Source of the DNA: Cliona cf. orientalis
Taxonomy: Eukaryota > Porifera > Demospongiae > Clionaida > Clionaidae
DNA length: 64,000 bases
Direction of reading: 5' to 3'
Assembly (NCBI GenBank): GCA_963930775.1
Contig: OZ005696.1
Location: 7,378,001-7,442,000, forward strand
The notes under the pieces were generated by a model, which had not been told where the DNA came from, ran no database searches, and was given only the letters and a program-made list of their open reading frames with translations. The position numbers and the translations under genes are program-made. Positions within the stretch are counted from its first letter, which is position 1; each line of letters starts with the position of its first letter. This document shows positions 2,900-50,128 of the stretch, in pieces.

Positions 2900-2922
2900 A
2901 TATCACTGAAGTATATACCATG

Positions 2923-3718: not shown

Positions 3719-3805
3719 TACGTAATAATGTGCTATAATTCTTTTCCTATAAAGGATGAAGAGGGAGACAGGCCTCTTCACCTATGTGCCTACAGGTACG
3801 TGCAT

Positions 3806-9167: not shown

Positions 9168-9804
9168 GCGTATGCTGTTATTGCGCATGCGTAAAGATGA
9201 TGGATTTAATTTTTCTCTCGTTTGTATAATTAGAAGGGATAAACAAGGTGAAGGCGTACTGTATGATGGCGGATCGTCTTGTCAATGAAGGTCAGCTGAG
9301 CTGGACGTTCATATGTGTCCGTTTTGATGTCGTGACCTTGCTAAATAATATAATTTACAGCGTTGATCAAAGATACTATTACACCAGTATACATAATCGA
9401 TAATTATGCTAATTGGCCTGCCATATGCATGCTCAGGGCAGGGTGTGGCTCATATTTTTTTTATCCCTGCACTATTAAAAGCAAGAACATTATGGGGCAG
9501 GAAAGAGAGTATCAAATGTGCAGATCAAGTGGCATAAATGGCACCCAAATTTTCGTGTGCTATCAGGTCTTGGTAGCCTCGTACCCAGGCAGGCCCTTTG
9601 AGCAGGTGGAGAAAGGGCCTGGTACCTATTGCACCAACTACCCCAAGAAAACCTTTGGTGCTGCAAATGGCTGTAGGCTTTTTCGCCCTCCTCTCACGCC
9701 TAGGGTACAAAGCGATGTCATATCAGTTTAGCCTTGTACCCTAGGCCACGGGAGGAGGGCAAAAGAAACCTATAGTCATTTGCGGCATCCCAGGTTTCTT
9801 GTGG
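9168..9804. other. Spacer without a supported gene
   Basis: No splice-consistent coding segment was found. From about 9588 to 9780 there are imperfect inverted pieces (CCTCGTACCCAGGC and related words, and a GGTTTCTTG-type segment in both orientations) that look like an eroded inverted-repeat element. The reading frames present are short and carry no recognisable domain. Confidence 0.5.
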
Positions 9805-12333: not shown

Positions 12334-12663
12334 CCTCGCCCCTTACATCAGATGTTCTGTTGCCACTGCTGAAAGGAGTGAAGAGCTGGAGGAAGCTGGC
12401 TAAGAAACTTCTCTACGCCTATGACAAGGATGGTGGATTTCTGTCTCCTCTTCTTCCTCGTGGTTATTCTCATCATAATTTAGATGATCTCCAACTTCAG
12501 TGGGGTACTGATGAAGACTGCCTCAAGGCTGTGATAGAGATATTTCTCCAGGGAAGAGGTCGGTACAAGCAGCCGTCTTGGAGAGCAGTGCTATGGTCTC
12601 TTTGCAATGCTGATGAATTTCGGCTGGCAGCTAGCATCAAGAGTTATGCTGAGCCTCTAAAAG
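12334..12663 (+). other. Exon encoding Death-like domain 1
   Basis: Acceptor CTTGTAG, donor AAAAG/GTGTGC, phase 1 at both ends, 330 bp. It encodes one helical Death-fold-like domain with WRKLAKKLL near the start and PSWRAVLWSLCNADEFRLA near the end, the typical helix 1 and helix 5-6 positions. It is the most diverged of the four N-terminal modules. Confidence 0.75.
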
Positions 12664-15600
12664 GTGTGCGCATTATTTTATTGATGGGCATTGTGAAATA
12701 AACAGATTTTCCATTAAGGCATGACATTAAATCATTTAAATGTACCACCAAAAATACTGCATGTATCTATAATATGGGTTGTGTGTTATTTAGCCTCGTC
12801 CCCAGGCCTTCTGAGGGGGGAGGGGGAAGGAAGGCCTGGTATCCACTGCATGCGCATGCGCTACATTTTCCGTATAATTTACCGTAAAGTGTCCGTACAC
12901 TAATTCCTATCACGTGCTGACAAGTGAAACGGTCCATGTGTCTAGTCTAAAGAATACGGAATGACCTCCCGACCTTTGTACTAGCGATCACGCTAAACGC
13001 GTGCCCATGCTGTTCAGAGGCCTTTGTCGATCGATGGACAATATCGCTCGAGCCACCTCGAAATCTCGCTCGAACTTCCAACTGTCTAAGCCTGCCATTA
13101 CTAGGTACGTTGAGCACGATGCATTAAGGTCAAAGGACAAGTATACTAGGCAGTATCTGTACGTAATCGGATTATTCAGAATCTGAATAATAACAGCACA
13201 TGCACATGCAGTGGATACCAGGCCTTCCTTCCCCCTCCCCCCTCAGAAGGCCTGGGGACGAGACTATGTGTTATTAGACTAGGCCGAGTCTCGAGCTATA
13301 GGTTTCCAACCTGTTTTGATCATCTCTGGATAGTATTTGTTGTGATAGAATCATAACCGTAATATACTTCATGAATGGTATTCAATTTTAGGCTTGCAGG
13401 CTTTCATTTAGGATTTTCATGAAGGTGGGGGGCAAACGTGACAATTGCAGAGTTAAAGGGGGGTGAGGACTATGAATATTATAATGTAGAGTAGTACATT
13501 CGGGGGGTTTGAGAGTATGATCCCCCAGAAATTTTTAAACTCTACAATCACCGAGACTGTTTCTGGTGGCCTCTGAGACCCGGTTGAGGAGAAGCCTGTC
13601 AGTGATATCCCTCCTTTTTAAAAGTCAAATGTTGGATGGGGTATGTGTTTCCTAATGCGCGTAGCGCGAAGCTTCAGATAGTTAAATATGAGCAAAACTG
13701 CCGTATTGGACACTTTCATCATTTACCGTGTTTATTCTAATAGAACGCAAGCAAAAAAATAATTTCAAATCTGGTTTGCGCACAATTAGAGTCAAAACAA
13801 TTCCAGGAAGTGAATTTTCTTGCGTTAATTAGATGTTGCGTTGTAATAGAACAATTAGCATAGCTTTGAGTGACGACGAATAGTGGCTATCGATGGTATC
13901 GTACCTGTGCCCCTGGCCCCGATCATCACGAGGGTAGCCTGAGAAAGGCCTTCTGACAGCCGCGCCGCATGGTTAGCGATACCACTGAATCGTGCTGATC
14001 GCTGCCTGAGGCCCTGGCTGCTGGACTTAATTAGTGCAGTTCCAACTAAGGTCAGTCCCGAGTGTAGTTTAGTACCCTCATGAACGACGAACGACACTTG
14101 CGATTTGGTTAACTATAGCTAGCAACGAGTCCGAGAGACAGAGCAAGATATAATATAGAGGCTTCCAGAACGGTTTATTACTAAGCAGGTGTGGTTTAAC
14201 CGTGCGGCACGCGGTTTGAGCATGTGCAATAGCCTCACCTTAGCACTATTGCGCTAATTGGATTCATAGAAAATAATTACAGACAGTCGCTTCCGTTCTA
14301 ATAGAATACAAACAATTCCTGGAATTGAATTTTCTTGCGGTAATTGGATCATGCGTTCTATTAGCATAAACACGGTAAACTTTCTACATGTACATGTACA
14401 TACCATAGTTAATCGAATACAATGCATGATCCAATTTAATGCAAGAAATTAGTTTTTTACGAATTCTCATAACGTTTATATATGAAGCGATTGCCCCCCC
14501 CCCCCCCCCCCACCCAAATGAAACCCTGACTTGCATGAAGTAGGGGTGGTTGAATTGGTCCTGATGGTCAGCATTTGGCTGGATCACACTTTCTCTCACC
14601 GATGAGCAGCTTGCCCTTGAAGGGAGGTTCATGAGCTCCTTACTAGGATCTTACCATTGGTGCATACGACCTGCGTACATGCAATACCGTATGGCGGGTA
14701 ATTTTCGTGGGGTCTAATTTTTGTGGAAAGTCCGAAAAGGCCCTCAAAATTAATTTTCGTCGTTCTAAATTTCGTGACAGCATCCAGTCTAGGGGCGTGA
14801 CACTGCTGTATAAGCGATGATGTAATCGATACACGCGCTCGCGATCTTCTTTGTTACTAAGCCATACCTACAGAGACTTGGACAAAAAGCATGAGATAGA
14901 AGAATATTAGTGTCGAAGACGCTATCAGCTGGATGATAGTGGCTATACTGTTGCTTTCTAACACTGGAAAGTGTTGGCTGCGTTGCCACGATGTTTGTGG
15001 CCACGCCCATCATCTTGGACTCGCATAGTACCATATCACAGTAGGCATTAATTTTCGTGGGTAGAAAAATTTCGTGACTGCCAAGTCAACCACGAAAATA
15101 ACGAAAATTAGCACCCCACGAAAATTTCCCACCATACGGTATCATTTGAGTATTGCTACAAAGTGTATTTATCATGTGTCTGATGTGATGATGTGATTGA
15201 CAATGTCCTCTCTGTCCCCAGACCCCACACTGACAGTGGAGAATGTGACTAGAGCCATGGAGAAGGTCACAGTGGACGAGAGGAGAAGAGTGTGGGGGAA
15301 GATATTTAACCATCCTCAAGTTATTGAAAAAATTTACAGCAGTCATTCCAGTGAAGAGGAGAGACTACATTCTTGTGCTGACACCTGTGTTACCTATGCC
15401 CCATCCATATGCTGGGAAGAATTTGTTCAGGAGTTGTATGACTATGGTGAAATGGCAGCAGCCAAAGAAGCAAGAGCTTTCCTTCAACACAAGGGTGAGT
15501 TCAGTGGGACCTCTTTATTTGTTAAGGAATTATACGTGTAGCTTGGATAGCTAGTAATATCATTTGTGACCGGATTTGGGAAAACCCTCCGTAACGAATT

Positions 15601-18600
15601 TTTTTCTGAAAATTGAGTTTGATGTATGGTTGATAAGCTCTACCATAGAGCTAACCCGCGTTCAAGTTTTAGGCCGATCGCGCGCTTCGTTGTGGAGATA
15701 CAGCACTTTGTTTGCGATCGCGCCACACCCCCAATATAATTGAGAAATTACGGTCTAAAGGCGTTGCTATGCACGCGTATGGCATTTCCGCATACTACGC
15801 GTGACCCGGAAATCAATTAAATGGACCTGGGCGGAGCCGTTCGAAATGAACGTGAAGATCGAGCAAGAGTTGAATTTCGTTGTTGACAACGACAGCCGAT
15901 TGTTCTTAGATGCCCAAGAAGCTAAAAAGGTGAGCGAACGTACAGTAGATCGATGAATCTAGCTGTATCTAGGTAGAGAATTCTAATTACCGCCTATAGT
16001 AACGGGCTCCGTGTACGGTGGCTGTGCCGACTAGGTGGGTCAAAATGAAGGCTTATTTCGCCTTCGTATAGCACGACTAGTACTAGCCTCCGTAGATGAC
16101 GGCAACAGTTAGAAGAAGGGTTGTTCCATATGTATATGACAAAATCTGGACTTGGACAAATTTCGACCTGAGCTACTAAAAACGCACATTGCGCGAATCG
16201 CGCGCGGATCCCTTACGGAGGGTTTTCCCAAATCCGGTCACATTTATCGGTAACCTTTACCTACTTATGCTTGTACTTGGCCAGTACATTAGATAAAGCA
16301 CAGTCATGATATGCAGTGGGTGTGGTTGATAGGCGTGGACCACTGTATGTACATTATGTGATGTACATACGCCATGCATGCATGCCAAACAATTTGCTGA
16401 AGATCGACAGATTCATTGTGCCTACCTACGAGCAAGAGTATGCACTCATGCTACGAGTCACTCAGATCCCCACATATGTGACCGGATTTGAGAAAACCCT
16501 CCGTATGGGATCCGCGCGCGATTCGCACAATGCGCGTTATTAGTAGCTCAGGTTGAAATTTGTCAAAGTCCAGATTTTGTCATATACATGTCGAACAACC
16601 CTTCTTCTAACTGTTGCCGTCTTCTACGGAGGCTAGTCGTGCTATACGAAGGCGAAATAAGCCTTCATTTTGACCCACCTAGTCGGCACAGCCACCGTAC
16701 ACGGAGCCCGTTGCTATGGGCGGTAATTAGAATTCTCTACCTAGATACAGCTAGATTCATCAAACTACTGTACGTTCGCTCAACTTTTTAGCTTCTTGGG
16801 CATGTAAGAACAATCGCCTGTCGTTGTCAACAACGAAATTCAACTCTTGCTCGATCTTTACGTTCATTTCGAACGGCTCCGCCCAGGTCCATTTAATTGA
16901 TTTCCGGGTCACGCGTAGTATGCGGAAACGCCATACGCGTGCATAGCAACGCCTTTAGACCGTAATTTCTCGATTATTGGGGGTGTGGTGCAGTCGCTAA
17001 CAAAGCGCTGTATCTCAACAACGAAGCGCGCGATCGGCCTAAGACGTGAACACGGGTTAGCTCTATGGTAGAGCTTATCAACCATGCATCAAACTCAATT
17101 TTCTGAAAAAATCCCATACGGAGGGTTTTCCCAAATCCGGTCACATATATACGAGATCACTGACAAACTACATTGTGCACTTGAAGTATACATGTATCAC
17201 AATAAATTGAGTAGATAAGAGCTCTTGCTACTTACCCATGCCTACAGCACTCTCTAGCCTAAACATAATATAGTAGGAAGTAGTACATGCAACATACATC
17301 TATAGGGATGGGAGATTAAAATTATGAAAATGGCTCAATTCTCCAGACCCCACTCTGACGGTGGAGAGTGTGACTGATGTGATGGAAAAGGTCACAGAGG
17401 TCAAGAGGAGAAAGGTGTGGGGGGCAGTGCTTAGATATAAGAAAAGAGTGCTGAGTCGGAGGGGACCAGATCGAATACTAGGACCACTCGATTACGATGA
17501 ATCATTTGATCTAGTTGATCCAGAGATTCTTACAGAAATTTATAGCAGTTATTCCAGTGAGAAAGAGAAGACCCATGCCTGTAGTGATGTGTATATCAAC
17601 TGTCGTCCAGAGTCATCCTGGGAACATCTCACCTCACTGCTGTATAGAGAAGATGAGCTGACTGCAGTGGACCAGGCCAGACCATTCCTGCCTCCTAGAG
17701 GTAAACTTAAACAATACTTTACTGCTAATTGGTGATCACCTAAGTCTAGCTAATCATTGCACGTTGGAGTGATGTACAAGCATCTTCTAAGAGTCAACAT
17801 CAGAATGTGGGCATCCTTTTCGGCCTCCCTACGAATTCTTTGTTTATTAGTAACTATAAACATTCTCACTATAGATACATGTAGCTTATTAACCCTGGTG
17901 TACTAGGGTTGATTACAATGATAATTTTCTTACCATGCTAGCAGCTACATGTCTCATTTGCAAGTCTCAAGTGAGGCAGTGTAGGAATTCTAGTATACTT
18001 CATGATTTACATTTGCAAGGCCTAGCTCACAATATGATGTAAGGACCCGTATTGCATTATGTTGCCTTGATATTGATGCTCATCACAATGCAAAGCATTG
18101 GTATTTACCTCGTGTATGTTGAGAGTTTTGGTATATAAGGTTCGTCAACTTGTAAATGTATAGGCTGAATATTACAACGGTACAGTGACACACTTGGGTC
18201 TAAAGCTATGGCAAATATCATACATACAGTACATATGGGATATGTACATGTACACAGGGGCTAGGAAGCATTTTGAATGTGGGTAGGCTGTGAGTGTGTC
18301 AATAGGTGGGGCCAATTATAATTAGATTAAGTGGGGACACTCCAATCCAATGGGTGGTGGTACAGTGTAAATTATTGCAGTGGAGAGTAGGGAAAGGTCG
18401 TCGGGCTCGCTAGCTAGATTATTGAATGAGGCTATGAGCATGCTCAGTCGCATGCAATAAATTGGTGGGTGTGGCCTCGATCTGCCAAAAAGTGGGGCGG
18501 CCATGGCCGCCCCGGCCGCCCCGCTTCCTACGCCACTGGTACATGTATTCCAGTTAAAGAGCAGTGGTACATGCAGTAAACAGTGATAATTCATGACATG

Positions 18601-21600
18601 CTTTCATTCATTAACCCTCGTGTGTGTGTGTGTATGTCTGTTATCACGCCAGCTGCTACATACCTGGTTTATACGATGCAAACAAGGCACCATTAGGCTT
18701 TTACGGTATCTTCAAGGTATGAATTGTGTGAATTTCGTTGAAAACACTTCGTTCAAAAGTTCTGGTAACATTTGCTGACCACCATGGCCTTCTTCGCTTC
18801 TTGACGAGCTCTCAATCGATGAAAGAGACAGCAATGGCTTCATTTCAAGATTAGTAGTGTGTAGCTCTAGCGATATTCTTGTAACTAAACTGACTCATCA
18901 CAGATCACAGTAGGCTATCAACTACTCTTCTTGGCTTTACTTTGTACTATACTAGATCTGCTGATCTGGCGTGCACATGGTACTACTACCTAATTGCATG
19001 CAATCCGTATTGGTGCATTCTTGTGGTTACTCTCTACAACTACACAGTACACTGTATAAGTAACAGTGTTGCTTGGCAAATTTGCAATATGCAGACTAGC
19101 TATAGCTATTGCGCTGAGGGTTTTGCACTATAGTTCTTCATTGTATAATAACTAAGCCACTCCATACCATACAGACAAGCTGTATGAGATTGAGTACAAA
19201 TTATGTACATGTACACAATAATGCCATGTATTTGGTCAGCAGTAGATTGCTTGCTGGATCGACATGCTTGCATAGAAAGTATAGCTAGTAGTGTACATGT
19301 GTGCATACAATATACATGACATTGTAATCTTGCTCAATACTATTCATTTTTATACTGTGTACCCACAGTGTATTATTTTATTTATCCCCACAGACCTCAC
19401 TCTCACCACTGATAGACTCATAGAGCTGTTTCAATCAGTGAGGGATCCAGACCCACCACCATGGAATCCAGGCTCACTACTAGAACCACCAGGGTATAGG
19501 TATGATATTGGAGGATTCCTTGGTCTACCAAAGTCTGCATTAGCGGAGATCAGGAAGAGATACCAGAGCAAGGCTAAACGTAAAGAGGCTTACCTGGATA
19601 CATATGTACACTACCATCCTTGCCCATCCTGGAAAGCCATTCATGAGTTTCTAGGGAAGTGCTTCCTTCGTCAACAGGCTAAGGAGGTGGAAATCACCTA
19701 TGTTCAAGGTATGCACTGCATGTGCATGCAGGACCTGTACACAGTGTAGTTATCTCAAGGCAGGGGGAGGTATATTAAACATGAAATGAATTATTGCTTG
19801 GGGCGAGGGGAGTTCTCATTTTCTGTGCAAACTGTGAAAGCTAAGAATATACCGTAAATCACGAATATTTCGTGTCTAAAATATTTCATGCAATAATTAT
19901 TTTTCGCGTTAAATAATTTTCAGATAAACGATCCTGTACCACATTGTCGTTAATATTGTGCATGTATTTCGTGTTTAATTTTCGCACAAGCCATGCTGTC
20001 CGAAAATATTTTAATATCAAAACATTCGCAATTTACAGTATTTACAGATCACTTGTATGCATAGCTATACATGTAAATTTTGGTGCATTATACATGGTTT
20101 TCTCATGGATGGTCATATTATTCAAAGCCCCGACTAGTGTGGTAACTATTCACGGATGCTTGGATTTTGAGGGTGGTAGTGACATTGTATGCATAATGGA
20201 CATGCACAGACATACATACATACATACCGTAAACTCTGGCTATTAAGCACACCCCCGCTATTAAGCGCATGCTCTCTTCTCACGATTAGCTATTGTTTAT
20301 TAAGCGCATGCGCATAATAGGCGTGGCGTTCTATGAACCCTGATGTTGACCTTAACAACTCGCTGGAAAGTGTGTATAATCCAGATTTCTTTGAAGATGT
20401 TATGATGGCCACAAATAACGCTGTCATGCAAAAAGATATTGTCTTCATACAAATTGCCAGCACTCATCAGCTTGAGTGGGACCAGTAAACGTTACCGCTT
20501 TCGATTAATCGAGCTAGCTAGCACTAGCGTGCCCGGAGTCGCATCACATGTACAAACATTTATGGGTGTGGTTATGTGCCTTATAAGCGCACATCTTTTA
20601 TTAAGCGCATACTACCGTTCCGTTCACCGTTATAAGCGCATGCGCTTGTTAATCACAGTATACGGTACCATACATACCATATCTGTATTGGTAGCATGTA
20701 TGCTAGAGCACAGAGATCTTTCATCTAGATCTGCTGCTGGGAATTGATCCCAAGGCCTCCTAATACCCCCCCCCTCCAGAATTCTATAATATATATGTAT
20801 ATATACAGCATAGAATTTGATTACATACACAAGCAAGAAGACATCATCACAGCATTATTCTGTGATTTATTTACTAGTATATGCATGGCAGCAGCACATA
20901 TACACACTCATACAAAGTAAGTCGTTCGTAAGATCCCCCCCCCCCCCCCCCCCCCCCCAGAAAAAATCCTGTATGCAACCCTGCCATAGGCCTTCAGCTT
21001 TACCGTAGGCGGATCCAAGGGGCATGTGCTCCCCCAGATTTTAAGGGTTTTGTTTAGGATTTTTGTCCAGGGGGGTGCAAAGACTATAGTATGTTTTTCC
21101 ATTCGTGAAGAATGACATTATGCTTATTTAGTTGATTATATTAGGGGGGTCTGGGGGTATGCTCCCCCAGGAAAATTTAATGTTTCAACCTCTGAGACTG
21201 TTTCTGGTGGCCTCTGAGACCTCGAATGGGGAAAGCCTGTCAGTAATATCCACTGGTTCCCCTCTATTTCAAATCAAATGTTGCAAGGATGTGGAATGTG
21301 TCTCCTACCGCGTGTAGTGCGAAGCTTCAGCTAATTTATGGGTTAAAATGAACAAAACTGCCGCTTTGGACACTTTCACCGTTCAAATCTTTTACTTGTG
21401 CATGCATGTATTGCATGTATGGATGGTGGCTACTCTCAAGGGGGGCAGCAGTACAGCATGGCAGGAGCTCGAGATAACTCTTCTACGTTCATCGAAGAGT
21501 GTGGCTACTGCATAATTTTTGGATAGAATCTAAAAGTGGAAAGCTAACACGGACTTCTGACGGCGATCATTATGCGATCGCTCGTAGCAGCGACAATAGA

Positions 21601-24600
21601 GCTGACAACGATAAACTATAGTTGGAGATCAACTGCTGTTTGTTGTTGCTAGTGCTTAAATTCTCCATTTTTTCACCGGATCTGTTCTATACTTAAACAA
21701 GCCGTTAGCCGAATTTATTTATTTTCTATTTAATGCCGAACAACGATATTTATAATTATTTTAGGCCATTCGGATAATTAGAGGGAGTATGGTATTTGTG
21801 TACTAGCATGCAAAGAGATGCTCTGGTAACCTAGATTGAGAATTTCTGTGGCTATACATGTACATCTAAATTGTCCTCATCACTGTAAATTTAGTCCACC
21901 ATACTCTGCATAAAAACAGTTGAATCGACAAACACGAATTCCTGAACGATCTGGTGCGATCATGTCTGATCTCCTCTGGTCTAAACTTGATTATATTGCC
22001 GTTCATTTTAATCATGATTAGCTACCTGTGAAACTACTTATGTGACTGCTTGTAATGGTGTACTGTGTAAGGCAACTACCTATTACAGCATTTGAAGAGT
22101 ATGTAGCGTAAAATACCGATTATCGGCATGTATCAATTATCGGCACCTGCATTTACGGCAAATTCTACGGGAAATTACAGACCCGTTTACGGTCCTGGAA
22201 CAAAAACTCACACTATCTCTCGAAGGGAAGTAAACAGGACGTTCTAAGGCCAACAGTCGTTATGTAGGCGTGGCAACAGACCCTTAGAGCCCAAGAAAGT
22301 GACCTTCGACCCCCAGTTTGCTAGCTGAATTTTTGGGATCAAATTTTTAGCTATTTTGTTGTCTGGTAGTCACCACTGAGTCTTAAAGTGGCTGTTTATG
22401 AGTTCTATAGCTTCAGGCTATTGCCAGGAGCTAGAGTTTAGCCTACAAAGTGTCAGACTAACGCCGATCATATCTAAGAGAAAATTTTGTGTATTTTTGG
22501 ATGTAATTTCAGCTATTATGTAGCGAGTGGAAAGATTCGCTCTCTTTAAATGCTACTGTTAGTGGAGCACATTGAAAGGAACCTGTGGAATTTTTTTCAG
22601 AATTTTCCAAGTAAGTGGTAAGTGTGGGGATACACGAAAGCTCGCTGGTGCCGATAATTGAGTATAGGCAGTACTATGGGGTGCCGATATCTGATTTTTT
22701 GATACCTTAGCTGTGCTGCCCATAGTTCCGTGAAGAACTGTATCTATAGCCTTGGATTTGAGGTGTAGTATATTGAGTTAAAAACCTATCCTTTGGTGCA
22801 AGAACCATCATCATAGGTTATTCTGCTGGTAAGTTATGCGCGGGACAAATATAGGTGCCGATAATTGGTATTTTACGCTAAGTATACATGTACCATGCTA
22901 TTTAGGCTGCTTGCCTGTAAGCTGAAGCTGCAAACGTCCACGTGGCAAATGAACACTGAGTGCTATTTGCATGCACATTCAGCTGAGGCTTGCTCTGATG
23001 GGCATTTGATTTATGTATTATCGTTTGCTTTTGAGCAGTATTCTTACTCTCCAGCTGTTCATAATTGATGACTGCAAGGTACTGAACTCTAACTAGCATC
23101 GCGAAAATCTTCACGCTGCATATGCATGCTCAATCTGTTCATACTTCCAAGCAGTATGCTGTGATAATTATGTCCTCAGTAGCAATTTACTTTTTTGCGG
23201 TTACCGTAGGTCGGGTTTTAATTGCGAGTATCTATTAATTGCGAATTGCGAGTTTTTCTACGTTTCGCAATTAATAGATTCACAAACATAAACGTGCACG
23301 TATACTACAGTACGGTACGGGGTCGTCTATCGCAATTATTGGATTCGCGATTTGGCTTGACTTGACTAGAACGCATTTATTAAACTACGCAATTAAAACC
23401 CGTCCTACGGTATTAGGTAATTGTGGTGTAACTTAAGAATCAGTAAATATGTAGAGTATCTGACACATGAATCCAGCGAATACCTTACAAGCAGCTTGTT
23501 GTCTTCTTCTCTGACAAGTAGCAATGGCCGAACTTCATGCGTTCTCTAGGCTGACGTAATCCCGTGGATATATAGATAGCCCTGCGCTATATATAGCACA
23601 CACCATGAGCAGCGTGCCACCGGACCGATCTGAAGTTCTGCGCTGTCAATTTCTTCTCTGTGATTGAAGCTTCGAAATTTGTCACTATCGAGGTATAGAG
23701 CCGCTCTCCGACTCCCGATGATCCGAGTCTAGTCTGCGATGACTGTGTACCCACTATAATGACGACCTTTACCACATGCCACTTCCACTATGCAGCTACT
23801 GAGGACATGCGTGGTCAAGGTTTCATATTGTATTCAATTTGGATATATATTTTCTGTACCGTACGAGCGCTTTATGCGCTCTGTGTTACAGTTTTGTGTC
23901 CATGGAAGCAGTCACTCCCTTTCAAGGAACCATGCACAAACATAGGCTAGGATATTGCTTGAACAAAGTGTTTGAGGCAATGCTCTCCACTTCCCAGTAC
24001 ATATCAGTAGCAGTCAAATTATATACCACAGCACTATCAAAGCATAATTTCTCACATAAACATAAATGACACTAAATAGCTACTAGCTAGTAGGTGAAAA
24101 ACTTTCTGAAACTGCAGTCAGAGCCAGAGAGGGAGTCTTCTGCCAGTCACAGCTAGAGAAGATAGTGGAGATACCAGAATCAATACACTAAGGGGTTATA
24201 AGAATGTGTATTATCTATACCTTTCTTTTGCACTAAACTACTGTATAATTGGGGCGAGCCTGAGCAAGCCCCACATAAACGTTACAGCTGTGCGCGAATT
24301 TTATATTATCATACACATGTATATTATGGTACGTCGGTCACATGAAATTATATCCCCAGGCCAGTGATGCTCTATATGAATGTAAATGCGAAGTATTCTA
24401 TTGCACATTCTCATGCCTGGGCTACAGGCCGTATATATGCCATTCTAATTAAGTGAATTGCAAATTTGCACTAGTGCTTATATTGTATGATATTGATGAT
24501 CGAGCAAGCTACCGTACTGCACCGTACAGAAGTAGGGCTCCAAGGAGGAGAGAGTGAGACAGAGCTTGTTATCAGCTCAACAGTGCAAGGACCAGCTAAG

Positions 24601-27600
24601 AACACGATAAGAGATGTTTAATCATTAAATTTAATATGACACATTCCAGTAAGCTTCTTAAGATTACGGAGAAACACTACTATTCCTAGGCTCACTCTTT
24701 GCATACATCCTACCACCAATGGATAAATATTTTACTTATTATTATGAGTTGTTACACCATGAGGAACCACACTGGGTATCCTGAATCCAGATTCCAAATT
24801 CCAGTAGCTTCTTAGGATTACAGAGGTCGTCATTGATATTGATCAGCTTAGACTGAGGATGGATAGTCTAGGGAAGAAGGGTGGAGCTAGAACTGGGTGG
24901 GCTACATTACAAGCCAGATAGTACTATAACCCTACTGATTACCCTTTCATTAGTGAGAGTGCATGCATGATGATGTTAATGAATGGACACTTTCCACGGG
25001 AGCCTGATTCTATTGCTGCATTACTAAGACAGGTAAGGTTGAGTTAAAGTCGTCACAGCTTCCAGGTCTTCTCTACACCACCATGGATTCACTGCTTCTT
25101 GTAGATAATGTGTCACTGATTGACAAACCCGTCCAAAATGTGTACCAACTGCCAATATTTCTTCCAATCAGAAAAGATTTAATAGACTAGTTAATTAAGT
25201 CAGGTTTGGCTACTGCTACAGGTGCACTTGAATGCCAGGCCAGGCCATAGAGGCAAATATATCCAGCAGTGGTGGCAAACATTACAACTGTCCCAGGCCT
25301 TGCTATGACACAAATGCGAAGTGTTCAACATTCAATAGGGAAGAAAAAAGGTCCAAGTGTATAACAAGATTTGAACCTGCTCCAATCAGTTCCACGCACA
25401 AGAGCACAAGCACTCAGCCATCACTGTTGTCATTGCTGGCAGTCGTTATTTTGCCTATTTATAGACAAACCCTAGAGACTAATCCTGCTGATGCTCGCAA
25501 CCCAGCCCCTCCCACACTAATTAACCCATTCGCAACCCAGCCCAGTCCACGTATATAGACAAACCCTAGAGACTAACCCTGCTAACCATTCACAACCCAT
25601 CGCCAGATTTCCCAGACCCTCCCATCTGTACCATTTAGCGATCGTGATTGCGTATGTACCTGCATATCGTGTTTGTGTTATTACAGCCCTCAAGTTGAGC
25701 GACAAACTCTGTAACACAGAGTGTCAGTGCACAGTCTGTGGCACATGCGCAGCTGTTTCTTATGTAGTCTATAATATCTACCGTTGCACTGACAATCAAA
25801 TCCTCAAATTGGTGACACTAGTTATGATATTATACATATACACTTCATAATCTACATCTACAGTACAGTTTAAGCCAATAAAATAAATAATTATGCAGTG
25901 TCTGAGAGAACCCAGCATTACTTTGACATCGCCATGAAAGGAGGAACTTTGATGATTCGAAATGGCAGTGTCTTTTTCTTGGGTCCCGGTGGGTCAGGAA
26001 AGACCCACACTCTTCACGCTCTTCTTCAGGAACAACCTCCATCAGTACGACAGAGCACTCCATGTGCTAAACGAACAGTGAGAACTATAGCTCAGTGCAA
26101 GGTGGGAGTGGAGGGTGTTCTCTTCATTCGAATCCAAGATGACCAGTATTCCGACATGCTCAGCACAACAGCCAAGCAGTTGCAGCCACAACCATCCAGC
26201 ATCAGCACAACCACTCCCCCTCCAGTTCAATCCAGACAAGAAGCAACATCAGAAGAAGTCATTTCAGCTATCACTCCAGCGTCCATTGAAGCTGCTGAGG
26301 AGAATGATTCACACCCTATCAAAAGTGAAGCTTCAGCTTCCACTCCAGTCAAGAAGCAGAAAATACCTCAATCTTGTCTCAGTGGTTTCGATAGAGAAAT
26401 GCTTCGTCGAATGCAGCTGGTGCCAAAGAGATCTGAAAGTCTCATCGACAAAGATCTAATAGACATGAAGGATTCAGGGGGGCAACCAATGTTCCACGAA
26501 GTGCTACCCCTCTTTGTCAAAAACACCACATTTGGTGTACTGACAGTGAAGTTGAATGAAAGGCTGGATAGCTACCCCATGGTAGACTATTACAGCAATG
26601 GTAAACCAGTAGGAGAGCCATTCCCATCTCCATTTACACACCTACAGACCTTTCGCCACTGTATGAGGGTCCTTCAGTCGACTTGTAGCAAAGGCACCTG
26701 CCCAAAGCTTGTGTTCATTGGCACTCATAAAGATCTGGAGCAGGAGTGCCAAGATGAAAACAGAGAGGAAAAGAATCAAAAGCTTCGAAGCATAATCCCT
26801 TCAGATCTGAAGCAAAGCATCCTCTACTATGAGCATTGTAATGAAGAGCTTCTGTTTGGTGTTAATGTCAAAATACCAGGAGATAAAGATCGCAAGATAA
26901 TAGGGTACGTACGCGAAAGAATGATAGAGGAGTTACAGAAGCTCCCGCAGCAAGAAATTCCACTCCAATACTTTGCCTTGGAGAATGCCTTCTTGCGATT
27001 GGCAAAGTATCAGCGTAAAGGAGTTCTGAGCAAAGAAGATTGCTTTAGAGAAGCAGCTGCCTACCATTTTTCAAAGGAATCTTTTGAAGCAGCTCTACAG
27101 TACCTCCATGGCCTCAAGCTTATCTTCTACTATAAAGAGGTTCTTCCAGAAGTGGTCTTCATTGATGCCCAGACCATCCTTGATAAGATCACTGAGCTTG
27201 TTGAATTTAGTCTGTCATTGTCTTCTCAATCCAAGCCAGTATATGAGTTGACCATATCTATGGATATCAAGGAGTTTCAGGAATTCAAAGCTTATGGCAT
27301 TGTCACACTTGAGCTTCTTTCACAGTTTAGCTCTCACTATGTGCCAGGCTTATTCATGCAGCAGCAGCTAATCTTTGTCTTGAAGTACCTACGGGTGATT
27401 GCTGAAGTTGGCAAAGGTAAGTACCTCATGCCCTGTCTTCTCAAGGTGTCAGCCATACCTCGACCCTTGCCACATTCTTCCAATCCATCCATCTCTGCAC
27501 TTCTCTTCTATTTTGGTCCAAATGGTCCTAAGCTTGGAGTCTACTGTTTTCTCCTTGCTTCTCTTATCACTGAAGCCAAGTGGCAGCTTATGACCGAGAA

Positions 27601-30600
27601 TGATCGTCCAGTCCAAGTATCACGCAACCAAGTTCAGTTCAGGCTTCCAGGAGATGATCCTGGTGCTGTCACCATAACCGATTCCTTCTCGACTTCCTTT
27701 CATGTCAGTATCGACTTTCCTGAAGATATGGAAGCTGATGAATCTTTCCAGATAAGCAGTAGGATTTGTCCAGGGATTCGTGAAACGATTCTCTCCTCGA
27801 TTCAAAAGGTTTCACACAGACTGAACTACAACAATTCAATCCCAAAGGTAGCTTTTCCCTGCACAAAGCATCTACCTGATGCTATACACCCTGCCACCAT
27901 TTCAAGTACCGGATTTTTGACCTGTACGATTCATCCTGCCTCAGTATACAGTCGCCTTACAGAGCAGCACCGGATCTGGCTCGGAGAGGAGGTTCATGCT
28001 GACGTCAAAGGTACGAATATAGTCCACAATCATTGCTCTTATTCCTATTGTAGCTAGTGTTTTCAAATTGGAGAAATAGTTGATAATAATTATGCTAGAT
28101 TCACCACAATAATATTATTATTGGAGTTTTTAATTCTGTTTTGCACTAATTAACTCTAGGAGATAACCAAAGTTGTCAGGTGCTTGATCAGGTGATTGAT
28201 AGTGGCCACAGTGGAGTGCCAAGGCATCTCGGCCAGATAGCAGAGACCATGTACGAGTGGGAGGGACCAGTTGCCGATAGTCTTGGACTTCATCAAGCTG
28301 ATGTTGCAGCAATCAAGAAAGCACATCCTGGAGAACTCCAACTACAAACGTAAGTACAATGTAGCTAGTGGCTATCCTGCCGTGACTAAAATTACATGGA
28401 AACTATTGTAATGTCTTATAGGAGAGCTGCTCTGGAGAAATGGAAGCAGTACAATGGCCCTAGAGCCACCTACAGGAAACTGATTGCTGCATTTGAACAA
28501 GCTGGTCGCAAGGACTTCGCTGGAATAGTTCAAAAAGTAGCTGGTAAGTATAACAGTAACTATAGTGAGTTCTACGTATGCATTATTACTATATTATTTC
28601 TTACATGTACCTTAGACTAGCAGTCCTAATGTGCCTCTTACGTATTAATTTTGTTTGATTCTAGGAGCCCTAATGTGCCTCTTATTTGTTTGATTCTAGG
28701 AATTGTACCAATCACCACTAGCAAGCAGATTGCAACTGATAGTGTACAACCTCAAGGTGGTGGTGATGTGGCCACTGCACCGGCTAAAGGTGAGCTCAGA
28801 TGACCACTCTGCTCTCTCTGCTCTGTCCACATCATACCATAGTCTTGCGAGCTGGCTATAGCCACTCCTCTCTTTTTTGCACGCACAAAGAGAGGTGGGA
28901 CTAGCTCGCCAGACTAACAATACTACAGTAACTGTTTCGATGACTGTTGAGTGGACTTACATTTACATGGCTTTATTAACCCTCGGCGCATGCGCGAGGG
29001 TTACGGTAGTCGTTCTGTGTGTAAGTGAGTGACTGAGTGAGTGAGTGTGTGTGTCTGTTACCATGCTAGCTGCTATACATACCTGTTTTATACATTGAAA
29101 ACAAGGTGCCATTAGGCTTTTCGTCGTAGATACAATATATTATGTATTGTGTGGATTTCGTTGAAAATGCTTTGTTCAAAAGTTCTGGCGACATTTTCTG
29201 ACCACCACGGCCTTCTTCGCTTCTTGTCGAGTTCTCTCTAGATGAAAGAGATAGTAGCCGCTTCATTTCAAGAAGATTAGTGTGTAGCTCAAGCGATAGT
29301 TCTTGTAATTCGACTGACTCATCACTAGTCACAGTAGACTGTCAACTATGCTTCTTGGCTTTACTGTATACTACTAGATCTGCTGATCTGGCATGCACGT
29401 GGTACTATTGCGTAATACCTTGCAATCCGTAATGCATTCTTGTGGTCATAGTTTCTCTCTACAACACTGCTAACAGCAACAGAGTGTTGTAGGCTTAACT
29501 TGCAATGTAGACTAGTCACTACTGCAATAAATCTCACAGCGCCGAGGGTTTAGCACCAATGGTGTTCATATTATGCAGGTATTGATGGTACTGCTACCGC
29601 AACCAGCTCTTTTCACCAGCCTCATCAAAATCTCTCCACCAGTTCATCTAACATTCCTGGACCTGCTGCTGGTCAAGTAAGTGTTGAAATATTTAGTATT
29701 AGCATAATATGCTTAAGTTTGTGCTGTGAATTCTTCATAGGGTATAGGGACTGGTCTGGTTATGGAGGCCCCACTTCAGCAAGCTCCACCTCAGTCAGTG
29801 CTGGGCAAGGAAGTACGAGGTATGTACATGTATGTGGTTCATTTTAAAGAACGATAAAACAATAGTTACTTACTTTTGGGTAAATATTTAAGGGGCAAGA
29901 ATGTTTTGGAAAGGAGCCCAGATGAAATATTCTTATCAAGTTCTGCTCATAATATTTTTCTCTAGAGCCCACTCCAGTTGCCGACAGTTTGACTACAGAG
30001 TGCTTTTGTGAATCCCCTGTGGATGTCAAATTTGAGCCATGTGGCCATGCCATGATGTGCAGCACTTGTGCTCAAAGAGCTAAGAAGTGTCCTCAGTGCA
30101 AGGTAGAAGAATACCGTTAATAACTAATTCAAGGATTTATGCATACCTTGTGTGTTTGTTTATATTATGTCACAGGCAGCTGTCAAGTCCTTTTCCAAGT
30201 TGAAAGTAATGTGTCTAATGTGCACTGAAGAGGAGGCCACCGTTACCATGAGACCTTGTGGACACATGTTTTGCCCTGGTTAGTTGATCAACAACTCGAA
30301 CACTGCATGAGTTAGACCATTGAGCTCCGATTTTACATTCACAGGTCCAATTATAAGAGTATGATACAATGCTGTGAATTTATTGTGTGTCTCTCTCCCT
30401 CCCCTTTTTCTCTCTCCAGGCTGTGCTAGGAGAATGAAGAAATGCGTTGAATGCCGAGCACAAATTACTGTTAAAGAAGGCTTGTGTAAGTTTAATGACA
30501 TTGTGCTTCTTGCACGATTAATTCACTGCAGTGATCTTTTCTTCCAGCAATGGAGACTAGTGGTGGTGGGAGTCCTGGATCTAGTGGTCTTAACTGTGCC

Positions 30601-30732
30601 ATTTGTCTAACAGAGCCCAGAAACACAGCCCTCCTCTGTGGACACCAGCTCTGCTGGAACTGTGCTGAGAGAGTGGACCATTGCCCCTTCTGTGGAATGT
30701 TTATCACAAACAGAATTCACTTATTTCAGTGA
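12334..30732 (+). CDS. Death(x4)-Roc-COR-Death-RING(x3) chimeric protein, 5' end unresolved
   Basis: Fourteen exons join in one open frame (4454 bp plus a missing first exon): 12334-12663, 15222-15494, 17347-17700, 19394-19708, 25899-28010, 28160-28349, 28422-28543, 28700-28789, 29579-29676, 29741-29819, 29966-30102, 30176-30278, 30420-30485, 30548-30732 (TGA). Exons 1-4 each encode one Death-like domain. Exon 5 carries a GTPase with P-loop GPGGSGKT, G3 DSGGQ and G4-like THKD, then a COR-type region. Exons 6-7 are a further Death domain. The next three are Ser/Thr/Pro linkers, and the last four are three RING fingers most like those of the mind bomb pseudogene. DAPK1-type and MFHAS1-type proteins pair Roc-COR with Death or LRR modules, and RINGs would add E3 ligase activity (inference). 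Joining exons 1-4 to exon 5 across 6 kb is supported only by phase (all 1-1), so two genes are possible. The Roc-to-RING chain is much firmer. Confidence 0.72.
12795..13262. mobile_element. MITE with about 50-bp inverted ends (CTCGTCCCCAGGCC)
   Basis: A 468-bp element whose two ends are near-perfect inverted repeats for about 50 bp (CTCGTCCCCAGGCCTTCTGA on the left; TCAGAAGGCCTGGGGACGAG on the right), including a purine-rich GGGGGAGGGGGAAGGAAGG tract. It lies in the intron after the first Death exon. Non-coding. Confidence 0.88.
13395..13705. repeat. Dispersed repeat, copy 1
   Basis: About 310 bp matching 21050-21375, sharing GAGACTGTTTCTGGTGGCCT, GAAGCCTGTCAGT and GCGAAGCTTCAG blocks and flanking G-rich/C-rich palindromic patches (GATCCCCCAG). 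No ends or coding capacity could be defined. Confidence 0.65.
13724..14377. mobile_element. 654-bp MITE, TACCGTGTTTAT ends, with an internal 80-codon ORF
   Basis: Ends are inverted (TACCGTGTTTATTCTAATAG on the left, CTATTAGCATAAACACGGTA on the right), with a second internal inverted pair around CCAGGAAGTGAATTTTCTTG. The minus strand has an 80-codon reading frame (13855-14097) of ordinary composition and no recognised domain. It could be captured host sequence. The element lies in the intron between Death exons 1 and 2. Confidence 0.7.
14684..15142. mobile_element. MITE, ATACCGTATGGCGGG ends, iterated ATTTTCGTGG
   Basis: A 459-bp inverted-repeat element (ATACCGTATGGCGGGTAATT against a CCACCATACGGTAT end) in which ATTTTCGTGG or its complement recurs near both ends. 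The terminal octamer is shared with the elements at 8965 and 20224. Confidence 0.85.
15222..15494 (+). other. Exon encoding Death-like domain 2
   Basis: Phase 1 at both ends, 273 bp. The domain opens with DPTLTVENVTRAMEKVT and closes with CWEEFVQELYDYGEMAAAKE, a clear Death-domain signature (Trp followed by an amphipathic helix). Its first 15 residues are nearly repeated in domain 3, indicating exon duplication. Confidence 0.82.
15566..16241. mobile_element. GTGACCGG element, copy A, with a trapped first exon
   Basis: A 676-bp element with inverted ends GTGACCGGATTTGGGAAAAC / GTTTTCCCAAATCCGGTCAC and a 4-bp target-site duplication ATTT (15562-15565, 16242-16245). A 28-codon ORF, starting MNVKIEQELNF, runs from 15846 to 15929 and ends exactly at a consensus donor AAG/GTGAGC. 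Together with copy B, which is inverted, it sits between Death exons 2 and 3. Confidence 0.88.
16478..17144. mobile_element. GTGACCGG element, copy B (inverted)
   Basis: A 667-bp inverted copy of the element at 15566-16241 with target-site duplication ATAT on both sides. The matching ORF lies on the minus strand at 16784-16867, but the splice donor is changed (GT to TT) and two codons differ. A copy on each strand only 236 bp apart could pair into a long hairpin in RNA. Confidence 0.88.
17347..17700 (+). other. Exon encoding Death-like domain 3
   Basis: Phase 1 at both ends, 354 bp. Opens DPTLTVESVTDVMEKVT, as domain 2 does, then has about 27 extra residues (RRGPDRILGPLDYDESFD region) before the core IYSSYSSEKEK, and closes with SSWEHLTSLLYREDELTAVD. 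Two inverted copies of the GTGACCGG element lie in the intron between domains 2 and 3. Confidence 0.82.
17701..18611. other. Intron without identified content
   Basis: Between Death exon 3 and the TTAACCCTCG element I see ordinary AT-rich intron sequence, with a palindromic GCGGCCATGGCCGCC patch near 18496-18510 and no splice-bounded ORF. Confidence 0.5.
18612..19131. mobile_element. TTAACCCTCG element, copy 1
   Basis: About 520 bp similar to 28977-29556. The start is eroded (TTAACCCTCGTGTG with a GT run), with the internal block ACAAGGCACCATTAGGCTTT and the end CTGAGGGTTTTGCA. It lies in the intron between Death exons 3 and 4. Non-coding. Confidence 0.75.
19394..19708 (+). other. Exon encoding Death-like domain 4
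   Basis: Phase 1 at both ends, 315 bp. The domain opens DLTLTTDRLIELFQSV and contains LGLPKSALAEIRKRY and CPSWKAIHEFLGKC, matching the conserved helix 5 Trp and the dipeptide before it in the neighbouring modules. Confidence 0.78.
19849..20042. mobile_element. MITE, ATACCGTAAATCACG ends
   Basis: About 194 bp bounded by ATACCGTAAATCACGAATAT and an eroded inverse (ATTCGCAATTTACAGTAT). ATATTTCGTGT-like words recur inside in both orientations. It has the same terminal octamer as other elements in this window. Confidence 0.65.
20224..20668. mobile_element. MITE, ATACCGTAAAC ends, iterated TTAAGCGCATGC
   Basis: About 445 bp from ATACCGTAAACTCTGGC to a TATACGGTA end. The motif ATTAAGCGCATGC or a close variant occurs at least six times, clustered near both ends, with the internal part (20340-20560) unrelated. 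Clustered subterminal repeats resemble transposase binding sites (inference). Confidence 0.8.
20935..20958. repeat. poly(C) run of 24
   Basis: An uninterrupted C run in the long intron before the Roc exon, beside a short G/C-rich dispersed repeat (20990-21390). Confidence 0.9.
21050..21375. repeat. Dispersed repeat, copy 2
   Basis: Second copy of the repeat at 13395-13705 in the same orientation, including the GAGACTGTTTCTGGTGGCCT block and the GCGAAGCTTCAG tail. Divergence between the copies suggests age. Confidence 0.65.
22104..22880. mobile_element. TA-flanked MITE, TAGCGTAAAATACC ends, copy 2
   Basis: Same family and orientation as 2923-3718, with both ends complete and TA on each flank. 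Internal differences are mostly substitutions plus one deletion of about 20 bp in the right part. Confidence 0.85.
23202..23412. mobile_element. MITE, TACCGTAGGTCGGG ends, iterated AATTGCGA
   Basis: A 211-bp palindromic element (TACCGTAGGTCGGGTTTTAA against TTAAAACCCGTCCTACGGTA) with ATTGCGA/TCGCAAT words repeated at least six times. Non-coding. Confidence 0.85.
24827..25032 (+). pseudogene. Exon-like relic with an in-frame stop
   Basis: Bounded by an acceptor (ATTACAG) and a consensus donor (AGACAG/GTAAGG), and open for about 68 codons except for one TAG near 24918. The reading includes DQLRLRMDSLGKKGGART before the stop and SESACMMMLMNGHFPREPD after it. I do not recognise the family. It could be a dead exon of the surrounding gene or of an inserted gene fragment. 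Confidence 0.4.
25455..25610. repeat. Imperfect direct repeat of about 97 bp
   Basis: TATAGACAAACCCTAGAGAC occurs twice, about 97 bp apart, each followed by similar CCTGCT ... CGCAACCCA words. It lies a few hundred bases before the Roc exon. No function is inferred. Confidence 0.6.
25899..28010 (+). other. Single 2.1-kb exon: Roc GTPase plus COR-type region
   Basis: 704 codons without interruption, phase 1 at both ends. The P-loop GPGGSGKT is near residue 29, followed by a Gln/Pro/Ser-rich stretch of about 80 residues, the G3 motif DSGGQ preceded by a hydrophobic strand, and PKLVFIGTHKD in the G4 position (THKD instead of NKxD, as in several Roc proteins). The downstream part has the ILDKITELVEF and YLMPCLL-type strands expected of COR. 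There are no leucine-rich repeats or kinase domain. An intronless core of this length contrasts with its short-exon neighbours. Confidence 0.85.
28160..28543 (+). other. Two exons encoding the C-terminal Death domain
   Basis: Exons 28160-28349 and 28422-28543 together encode about 104 residues: LGQIAETMYEWEGPVADSLG, then AALEKWKQYNGPRATYRKL and FEQAGRKDFAGIVQKV. This is a canonical Death domain (W-x6-L and R-x-T-Y-R-x-L-I positions). Similarity to death-fold proteins is stronger here than in the four N-terminal modules. Confidence 0.85.
28842..28917. mobile_element. Tiny foldback element, AGTCTTGCGAGCTGG ends
   Basis: A 76-bp hairpin with inverted arms (AGTCTTGCGAGCT ... CTCCTCTCTTT against AAAGAGAGG ... 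AGCTCGCCAGACT) in an intron of the chimeric gene just after a linker exon. Confidence 0.6.
28977..29556. mobile_element. TTAACCCTCG element, copy 2
   Basis: 580 bp, with ends AACCCTCGGCGC and GCGCCGAGGGTT in inverted orientation, and a GAGTGAGTGA/GTGTGT microsatellite just inside the left end. It lies in the intron between two linker exons of the chimeric gene, at the point where the Death part gives way to the mind bomb-like tail. The second copy is at 18612-19131. Confidence 0.82.
29966..30732 (+). other. Three RING fingers of the chimeric gene
   Basis: RING 1 (29966-30102) reads ECFCESP ... CGHAMMCSTC ... CPQC, but with only one residue between the first two cysteines where the paralogues have two (ECFLCES). 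RING 2 (30176-30278 with 30420-30485) retains CLMC ... CGHMFC ... CVEC. RING 3 (30548-30732) retains CAIC ... CGHQLCWNC ... CPFC and the terminal hydrophobic tail ending LFQ, as in Mind bomb. RINGs 2 and 3 look functional; RING 1 may bind one zinc poorly. Confidence 0.85.
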
Positions 30733-31651: not shown

Positions 31652-31687
31652 GGGGCCCGGGGGGGCTTCCCTTCTTCTCCAAACGCA

Positions 31688-34600
31688 ATGGAGGTAGAGG
31701 TTGGTTTGCGAGTCGTTCGAGGTCCTGATTGGCAGTGGGGTGATCAGGACGGCGGAGAGGGGTGCCTGGGGACCATCACTGGTATGGGAGACCAAGGAAA
31801 CGCTGTAGGAGCTCTGCCACAGGTGCTCTGGGACTATGGCTACAGGTCCAACAACTACAGGTGTGGCAAGGAGGGAAAACATGACCTCGTAGTCTATGAT
31901 ACTGCCCCCACAGGTAAGTCAGGGTTGTAAAATATTTACTGAAGTGATGAAGGGCGGGGAAATTAGTCCATACCTGCTCAGATACATAATTATTAGTCTT
32001 TATGGTTGGTCTGGCATGGCCCAACTCACATATTGATCATGGCCCCAGGCTCCACCAACCTGTGTTGAGATTCAAGGCTAGATGAAAAATGGCCTATCTG
32101 GGAGAAGGCTATGCTGCTTCAACCTGATATGTATATATGTGTACAAGATCACTAAATTTATGTATCGCTGAGCGAACATTCCGTCAACTATGCAGGCATG
32201 CTTCATCCAGGCATCAGCTGTGGTTCTTGTCACCAGTGCAACATCCATGGGATCAGGTGGAAGTGTACTGAGTGTCCAGATTTTAACCTTTGTACCCCGT
32301 GCTATTACTCTGGAAAGCATAGCTTGGACCATCAATTTTCTCGCATTGACCATAAGGATGACAATATTGATAACAGGTATGACATCCTAAACAGAAATAA
32401 CCTGTTACTATAGCAGTCTTCATGAAGAATACCTTGGTGTAGTCATTGGCCCATCAGTCTTTATTTTGGTGCTAGTGGAGTCTAACATAAAGACTGTGAC
32501 TTGTTTTCTGATGCCATATTTTAATACAGTATGACTGTACCAGCTCGAAAATTATCCAGGAAGATCACTGCAAGAGGGTTCTTTCCAAGTGCCAAAGTGA
32601 TTCGTGGACAGGACTGGGTATGGGGAGACCAAGATGGTAAGCTAACTTGTCCATTAATAGTGCTCAGTGGAGTGTAGCGACATAATTATTATTAGGAGCT
32701 CAGTCCCAACGTTTTTGGATCATTAGCTCCACGGGGAGAGTAGACCAGCGTCTTTCTGCATTATATTATGTCATGATTTTGACATGTCTAGCACCAACCT
32801 AGAGTCCTATTCATTACCTACGGTAAAGCAAATTTTCATTGAAATTAACCAGGTTCATGGCAAACAGCTCCATTTTAAAATTATTGATTTACTGTAACCT
32901 AACCTAACATTTGCATCTCATTAAAAATCATGAAAGCGTCGATTAATATTGTGGAGTGTTATAATGATTTTATGCTAAGAATTTTGTGTTGCAAGGCACA
33001 AGTTACCTAGTTGTATGATTAAAGCTTCTCCATTAATTTTACACAGCAGTTTAATTACAGGTGGTAAGCACGGATTTGTCACACGCCTCCTAGACTACAA
33101 TTCTGAAACAGATGTAAGTCAGATGCGGTAATTTTGCCAACAATGATCAAGTGTTATTATTCTCTTCACTGTCAGAGGAGTGTGGTGGAGGTGGAGTGGA
33201 CAGCCTCACAGAATAAGAATATCTACAGAGCTGGCCACAAGGGAAAGGTATAATTATTACACAACTACTACTTCCTCATTAGCATTCATGAAGTGATATT
33301 GATTTTCTCACAGGTTGATCTGAAGTGCCTTACTCCTGGAGAATGTGATGGCTTTTATCCTGAACATTTACCCAAGCTCGGTATGCAAAATTTAATCATA
33401 CAAAACGGGCACCAATAGCCATTAATTTTTCTTTCTTAGATGGAGCACTAAAAGTTCGGCCACAGCCTACATCATCTGTGGGGCAGACTTCCTCTGCCTC
33501 AAATGTAGTGTCAGCTTCTCTTCCTCAAGCAGTGGCCCAAAATACTCCAACTGTAGCTCCAGTGCCCGTGGCCCCCATTTTAACTCCACCTCCCAGTCTA
33601 AGTGCACCAGTGACTTCTGCCTCTCCAGCTGAGTCACCAACTACCACAGCCCCTGCAGTGCCTACTCCTGCTGCTGTTGCTACTCTCTCCCCAGCTACTG
33701 CTGCTACAGCTATTGCTACTCCTTCTCCAGCTAGTCCTACTGCTACAGCTGGTACTGAGCCAAGTGCGGCGGCATCTGTTGTCTCTCCATTTGCGATAGG
33801 GAGCCATGTGAGGGTGCAGTTGGAGTTAGAGATATTCCGAGTGATGCAGGAGGGCCATGGAGGATGGATGGATGATATGGCCGAGGTAAAAATGTATATC
33901 ATAAATTTGACTTCCACTACTATAATAGTTATGATAATATTATTGTACGTATATTATGTACCGTTATACTGTAGATTGACCATTCATGTAATAATCCTCC
34001 ACTAATCTGTTTCTTGTAGACTCTTGTGGAGGCTGGGATGGTGCAGTCTGTCTTGGAGTCTGGGGATATACGTGTGAAATATCCCAGTGGCAACGTTTGG
34101 ACACTTAACCCTGATACAGTAGTGAAAGTGAGAAATTAGAGATTGCTGACCGTGCACTTTGCCAGTTAGAGAGATAATTTTACATTTGCTTAGGTGGAGC
34201 AGTATAAGGTTGGAGATGCAGTTCGTATCCTCGATGACATTGCCAGAGTACACGACCTTCAAGAGAACCATGGTGGGTGGATTGATGACATGGCCTTGGT
34301 AAGAAAAAGAAACATCACTATTAGTAGACAGTTACTATTTAACACTATTTTATGCACGAGGTTTATGAATTGTGCGAGTCACATGCTGGTCTCATAAATT
34401 GGAGCCACATAATTTTTTTTATTGTACCATACATTAGTGCAATGCATGAAATACTATAATATAGAACGCATTAAAAACGCATATTATCATGAGAGGTCCT
34501 GTTTGATGTTTTTACACAAATGTCACTTTATTTTTTCAGTCTCTGGGTCAAGTGGGGCGAGTGTCCCAGGTCTTCCCCACTGGAGATGTCCGAGTTGGTG

Positions 34601-50092: not shown

Positions 50093-50128
<36 letters not shown>

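Follow-up and report, generated by a model that had tools for sequence, protein, structure and literature searches.

How does a Roco gene with Death-like modules come to end in the three RING fingers of Mind bomb (mib), and what might the protein it encodes do? The question is raised by a gene on the forward strand of C8:7378001-7442000 of the sponge Cliona cf. orientalis, a stretch of 64,000 nucleotides that we refer to as the window; the genome is 217 Mb in size, and our comparisons between loci were made within it. Fifteen exons between 9263 and 30732 join into one open frame of 1,493 codons, closed by a stop at 30730-30732. All 14 introns are GT-AG and their phases agree throughout. The joined protein carries, in this order, four Death-like modules, Roc-COR, a Death domain, linkers and three RINGs.

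The features named in the initial annotation lie where it placed them. Downstream of the Roc exon, all nine junctions have GT-AG sites and matching phases, and the frame runs open to the stop. The stretch that it gave begins at 12334, but a probable first coding exon lies upstream, at 9263-9290. The same start and GTCAGC donor were recognised by eye downstream of mib tails in L034, L035 and L036, and the gene probably starts at 9263. In the list below, L013 to L032 are the 20 stretches that we examined behind other Roc-COR matches, mib A is the mib gene at the beginning of the window, and the exons of the RING tail are labelled R1 to R4 elsewhere in the text.

9263..9290, + strand, probable first coding exon (28 nt; MMADRLVNE, then a G split across the junction; phase 1; GTCAGC donor)
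12334..12663, + strand, Death-like module 1 (phase 1-1 exon; 75-82% identity in three sister units)
15222..15494, + strand, Death-like module 2 (module profile)
17347..17700, + strand, Death-like module 3 (module profile)
19394..19708, + strand, Death-like module 4 (module profile)
25899..28010, + strand, Roc-COR exon (motifs GPGGSGKT, DSGGQP and THKD)
28160..28349, + strand, Death domain, first exon (Pfam Death)
28422..28543, + strand, Death domain, second exon (Pfam Death)
28700..28789, + strand, LK1, linker exon of the Roco gene (81-97% identity in L013, L014 and L017)
29579..29676, + strand, LK2, chimeric linker exon (Roco-derived to about 29661, mib-derived from about 29663)
29741..29819, + strand, LK3, mib-derived linker exon (homology to mib tails)
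29966..30102, + strand, RING1 (first Cys pair CFC, against CFLC in six mib tails and L017)
30176..30278, + strand, RING2, first part (alignment with mib tails)
30420..30485, + strand, RING2, second part (alignment with mib tails)
30548..30732, + strand, RING3 and stop (Gly in place of the Arg after the last Cys; zinc ligands and C-terminal Phe retained)

The seam and the unfused sister gene

The origin of the tail can be read from a related Roco gene that ends differently. L014 (C8:7289658) has Roc-COR, Death, LK1 and the beginning of LK2 in common with the window gene; it then has its own donor, followed by a last exon that codes a Death domain (7.3e-10) and carries a stop. Within LK2, the match to L014 ends at 29661 and the match to mib tails starts at 29663, and from there on the exon is like the pre-RING exon of the local mib genes (L034, L035, L036 and mib A). 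The mib frame and donor were kept, and because of this the RINGs are read correctly in the fused gene. Both the fusion of a Roco gene to a Mind bomb RING tail and the local mib genes as its donor had been proposed at the outset, and both are borne out by the unfused sister gene L014, by this change of homology and by two further fused copies.

An identical seam is found at L013 and L017, together with LK1, LK2, LK3 and R1 to R4, R4 of L017 being in pieces. When the Death-to-RING1 linker was searched against the genome, its LK2 part (query 133-166) appeared among the matches listed only at 7376208 and 7407575; the LK2 copy of L017 was recovered separately, in the comparison of the L017 stretch. 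In a tree of the tails, the three fused ones split from the mib tails (support 84), with window and L013 together (support 99). This split and the common seam are compatible with one fusion event that was later duplicated, and the Roco gene was probably fused to the mib RING tail once, inside an array of mib and Roco genes.

The nine fitting junctions, first taken as strong evidence, do not carry that weight. They are not nine coincidences, because their phases were inherited from two parent genes; the sole new seam lies inside exon 29579-29676, where the chance of being in frame is one in three.

We also considered whether fusion is the normal form of this Roco family. A search of the genome with the Roc-COR protein scored 63 places out of 567 candidates, and the ten closest matches (79-100% identity, the window gene included) are all on C8. 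Using a three-exon Death profile (window, L014 and L016), we found a match 3' of Roc-COR in all 20 other loci, L014 and L016 matching by construction, and RING exons within the examined stretch in only two of the 20, L013 and L017, and we rejected this explanation on these grounds. The last exon of L015, L016, L018 and L019 codes a further Death domain (that of L016 at 8.6e-5, just over Pfam's cut-off); a stop after it is visible in L015, L016 and L019, and the frame of L018 ends at the matching place. A terminal Death exon is the usual end among the near relatives of L014. Death-like modules are also present upstream in unfused paralogues of that part of C8, and the comparison points to an architecture of Death-like modules, Roc-COR and Death in many copies; we did not find it described among the best matches in the open-licence PMC literature. 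More broadly, Roco genes with Death domains form a large family on C8, mostly at 2.7-9.6 Mb, and the Pfam Roc profile gives 149 matches genome-wide among 150 candidates scored, ordinary small GTPases probably included.

Modules of the joined protein

A Pfam scan of the joined protein detects the Death domain (3.1e-11) and three RING stretches (1.6e-23), in agreement with the domains first assigned to it. Scanned as separate parts, both Death exons give 1.3e-10 for Death and the three stretches give 4.1e-27 for PF13920. No kinase (at E up to 0.1) or ankyrin repeats were found in the scan of the joined protein, nor any MIB/HERC2, ZZ or BIR domain.

The four N-terminal modules had been annotated as Death domains. 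They are indeed related, forming one family in a profile of ten modules that includes these four, and this profile recovers from the open frames of the window exactly these modules and no further one. None of the four matches Pfam Death when taken singly, however, and among the ten modules scanned a single one does (4.4e-5). The ten-module profile aligns with a three-sequence Death profile (hhalign 95.2%, 2.4e-8); searched against the PDB, it gave no match. Because the match arises by profile comparison alone, we call these four modules Death-like only, a label that seems fair for them; the label Death is unproven.

For the exon annotated as Roc-COR, the assignment is made through the family; the window exon by itself falls short of the Pfam cut-offs (Roc 0.23, COR without a listed match). 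Among 19 family members, with matches counted at E up to 1, Roc is matched by 14 (best 4e-4) and COR-A by 11 (best 6.6e-8). The residues of the G1, G3 and G4 motifs (GSGKT, D..GQ and TH.D) are invariant across all 19, and at this level the family is predicted to encode a Roc GTPase with its G motifs, followed by COR. Matches of the Roc exon to Kinesin, AAA and Microtub_bd did not reach Pfam cut-offs and were treated as P-loop noise; its PDB matches were likewise judged to be noise.

Taking gene and modules together, we think it fairly probable that the gene arose by a genuine fusion, most likely a single event, and that it most likely encodes a Death-fold scaffold switched by GTP. The setting would be a tandem array that holds both mib and Roco genes. 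There, a segment from the 3' end of a mib gene, comprising part of one linker exon, a further linker exon and the exons of RING1, RING2 and RING3 together with their stop, would have been copied in frame into the final linker exon of a Roco gene, whose last Death exon it replaced. Duplication of the array would then have produced three fused copies, of which one, that of the window, is lesion-free in the sequence read. Supposing that the gene is transcribed as joined, the Death-like modules and the Death domain would enter an oligomeric cell-death or immune complex, the Roc-COR part could gate its assembly as a GTP switch, by analogy with Roco proteins, and the RING tail may recruit E2 enzymes to the Death complex, or Mib itself through pairing of RINGs.

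Of special concern is the tail, which was first assigned to a ubiquitin ligase. Three RINGs are present, and RING3, whose closest PDB match is RING3 of MIB1 (entry 8v0d, 2.4e-6), has intact zinc ligands (Cys/His) in the window copy and in L013, and has kept its C-terminal Phe. The residue after its last Cys, however, is Gly in both copies, against Arg in all six mib tails (mib A, L033, L034, L035, L036 and mib B, the copy that follows the fused gene) and in the MIB1 of 8v0d. This replacement may predate the duplications, because L017 shows a GGAATG run that by eye resembles the Gly-Met codons of the window. In addition, RING1 of the window and L013 has lost one codon in the first Cys pair, CFC for CFLC. 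With this codon and the RING3 Arg lost, ligase activity is doubtful, and the loss of the Arg suggests that any activity is weak or depends on a partner RING.

An active ligase is possible and should not be assumed, with a decoy or partner-dependent RING as a close rival. As a decoy, a tentative alternative in our view, the tail of a fused protein that is actually made is predicted to engage E2 or the RINGs of Mib while leaving ubiquitin transfer inactive, and would thereby restrain Mib or shield the Death complex; it would be a natural dominant-negative design. The shortened Cys pair of RING1 and the Gly of RING3 speak for this explanation, as do RING2, the RING3 zinc ligands and the C-terminal Phe, which are kept. 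XIAP, an E3 ligase, has Tyr at the place aligned with the RING3 Arg, and the Arg is therefore not indispensable. In Ark2C, the linchpin Arg is described as contacting both E2 and ubiquitin (PMC8897509), and by analogy the RING3 Arg position may correspond to it. RING3 is reported as the only RING of MIB1 needed for the substrate ubiquitination studied so far (PMC6713736).

State of the copies and rival explanations

The window copy is free of lesions and open throughout, the sole such copy among the three fused ones. L013 has a 1-bp deletion in its second Death exon, read as leading to a stop in LK3. In L017, the Roc exon has no stop in its first 656 codons, its end is broken up beside an inverted duplicate, and RING3 is decayed; the duplicate (L017:2110-2645) takes in the Death exons as well as the terminal part of the Roc exon. 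The unfused L014 is itself broken, because a stop stands at codon 260 of its Roc exon. With the other two fused copies broken, any case for selection on the fusion has to be built on that of the window.

That selection keeps the frame, as had been supposed, holds best for the entire gene: at 0.03-0.08 neutral substitutions per site, the coding sequence would be expected to acquire 5-13 stops on average, yet it is open. The tail alone stays stop-free in 20-53% of neutral runs, which is weak evidence. From the mib majority to the common state of window and L013, we counted 14 silent and 18 replacement changes in the RING exons (omega 0.35, P 0.0034), a count that may include time before the fusion; with LK3 included, the same lineage gives an omega of 0.51 (P 0.047). 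For R1-R3 only, the changes that postdate the split from L017 number 6 silent and 9 replacement (omega 0.40, P 0.075).

A comparison of window and L013 gives seven indels in 477 aligned bases of the five tail introns and zero in 568 aligned bases of exons LK3 to R4, and evenly falling indels would give such an intron-only pattern with a chance of about 0.004 by our own arithmetic. Substitutions, at about 2% in both tail introns and tail exons, show no difference. Synonymous divergence (dS) between the two copies is 0.02 in the tail and 0.125 in the head, and exchange between their tails is likely because these are nearly identical. Overall, the RING tail appears to be under some constraint.

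These results bear on the explanation that a partial duplication of mib left the tail behind as a dead, drifting remnant, with a Roco transcript that ends after the Death or linker exons. We judge this unlikely. It would fit the lesions of the other two fused copies, the lack of significance of the post-fusion changes, the share of neutral runs in which the tail stays open and the presence of a mobile element in the intron before it; it fits poorly with a seam that lies inside an exon and keeps a Roco acceptor and a mib donor in frame, with the omega of 0.35 on the fused lineage, with tail indels confined to introns, and with a Death-like module profile that recovers nothing further in the window. 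The RING exons could also be a separate small gene with its own start and an internal promoter, but we rejected this highly improbable explanation on the within-exon seam common to three loci, where the mib-derived bases begin mid-exon behind a Roco acceptor. Misassembly is possible in a tandem array, but a join made by assembly error is scarcely credible and was rejected, as three separate fused loci carry different lesions.

Several points nevertheless weigh against a fusion that encodes a working scaffold. The product is a prediction from genomic sequence, and the N-terminal modules are Death-like by profile comparison only. On the Roc exon, the tree does not resolve the four closest members (support 45-49). 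The damage to L013, L017 and the unfused L014 suggests an array prone to decay, and a mobile element lies in the intron just before the seam. The case for selection on the fusion is carried by one copy and modest statistics; post-fusion constraint by itself is not significant, and recent exchange may have copied the tail between window and L013. In the tail, RING1 has lost a codon and RING3 its Arg, and the name ubiquitin ligase is unproven. In one account, MIB1 uses its RING region to bind DAPK1 at the ankyrin region (PMC12408332), a site that was not detected in the fused protein. MIB2 is reported to ubiquitylate RIPK1 and limit death, binding it by its MZM part and not by its RINGs (PMC5912950), and in another account its ligase activity is given little weight for RIPK1 ubiquitylation (PMC7815719). 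As it stands, the observation made in the initial annotation is confirmed and its interpretation is partly supported.

A more far-reaching version of the fusion reading, which we put forward as a speculation, would see a single-chain GTP-gated Death-fold ubiquitin machine made by terminal swap, the array as a co-inherited pathway cassette, and the Roco-Mib partnership as ancient (a Rosetta stone). Such a machine would join in one natural protein the DAPK-like and Mind bomb families, which are described as separate interacting proteins in mammals. A connection between the two halves is on record: MIB1 is reported to have first come to light through its interaction with DAPK, which it was proposed to degrade (PMC6713736), and MIB2 is reported to restrain RIPK1. 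This partner argument is loose, because the fused protein is without the ankyrin region and MIB2 uses MZM for RIPK1, and the Rosetta stone reading is suggestive only. Adjacency in the array alone suffices to explain which two genes fused. Whether a Roco-Mib link reaches back to early animals is a question that the fusion makes testable.

The mib/Roco array and known systems

On C8, RING-tail matches mark nine places, all between 7.263 and 7.416 Mb, and three of these follow Roco genes. MIB/HERC2 heads were found at 7256, 7269, 7294, 7327, 7378 and 7410 kb, that at 7294 kb being below the cut-off and with a stop, and four Roco genes with Death-like modules lie at about 7278-7293, 7304-7324, 7363-7377 and 7390-7409 kb. 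From 7.269 Mb onward the two kinds of gene take turns along one strand, and three of the four Roco genes carry the fusion. The following features flank or interrupt the fused gene in the window.

1..8892, + strand, mib gene copy A (starts before the window; broken at least in RING2, whose exon has a 10-base gap)
28977..29564, no strand assigned, insert resembling a mobile element, in the intron that precedes the chimeric exon (approximate edges; not in L013 or L017)
31680..38046, + strand, mib gene copy B (start approximate)

The heads of mib A and mib B (1-1918 and 31968-33891) are 96% alike, introns included, and the matched tail exons about 80-83%; the heads have probably been exchanged recently. 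Part of the insert (29037-29465) is 81-82% alike over about 420 bases to a related insert of the same mobile-element-like kind at 18620-19040, the two lying in two introns of the fused gene. An inverted repeat pair (15558-16243 and 16476-17151, 93% alike) occupies the intron between Death-like modules 2 and 3, and another repeat pair, 92% alike, links mib A (2920-3718) to the long intron before Roc (22101-22880). Between the fused gene and mib B, 666 bases (30911-31576) stand against about 74 unmatched in L013, and contain a minus-strand open frame. Further downstream, at about 43770-55000 on the + strand, is a gene that by eye resembles Dishevelled, with a DIX-like start and a PDZ-like exon.

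A review of Roco proteins distinguishes three groups, the Death-bearing one being DAPK1, with a kinase in front (PMC6337361). The fused protein resembles DAPK1 in having Roc-COR followed by Death and in the cell-death setting (PMC6337361, PMC12408332). It differs in having no listed kinase or ankyrin repeats, with Death-like modules in front and RINGs behind, and DAPK1 is reported as a separate target of MIB1.

With Mind bomb 1 and 2, the fused protein shares three consecutive RINGs, and its tail is closest to the mib genes of its own array. Unlike them, it has no MIB/HERC2, ZZ or ankyrin match and carries a Roco-Death head instead, and its RING1 and RING3 have changes that are absent from the six mib tails. 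The RINGs of the tail also match those of the IAP-type RING E3s (BIRC2, BIRC3 and XIAP) by sequence, but the fused protein has a Roco head and no listed BIR domain. The unfused paralogues L014, L015, L016, L018 and L019 have the same Roc-COR and Death exons, but end in a Death exon and not in RINGs.

We did not find the domain order of the fused protein described among the best matches in the open-licence PMC literature. Its modules are known, their order appears to be new with an origin that can be traced, and its function is unproven. In a study of conflict systems, bacterial AP-GTPase-COR proteins are described in which the C-terminal place is filled by at least 24 different domains (PMC8195603). 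The window gene would add a traceable case of a cell-death protein that swapped the domain at its output end, and in which both the seam and the unfused sister gene can still be recognised.

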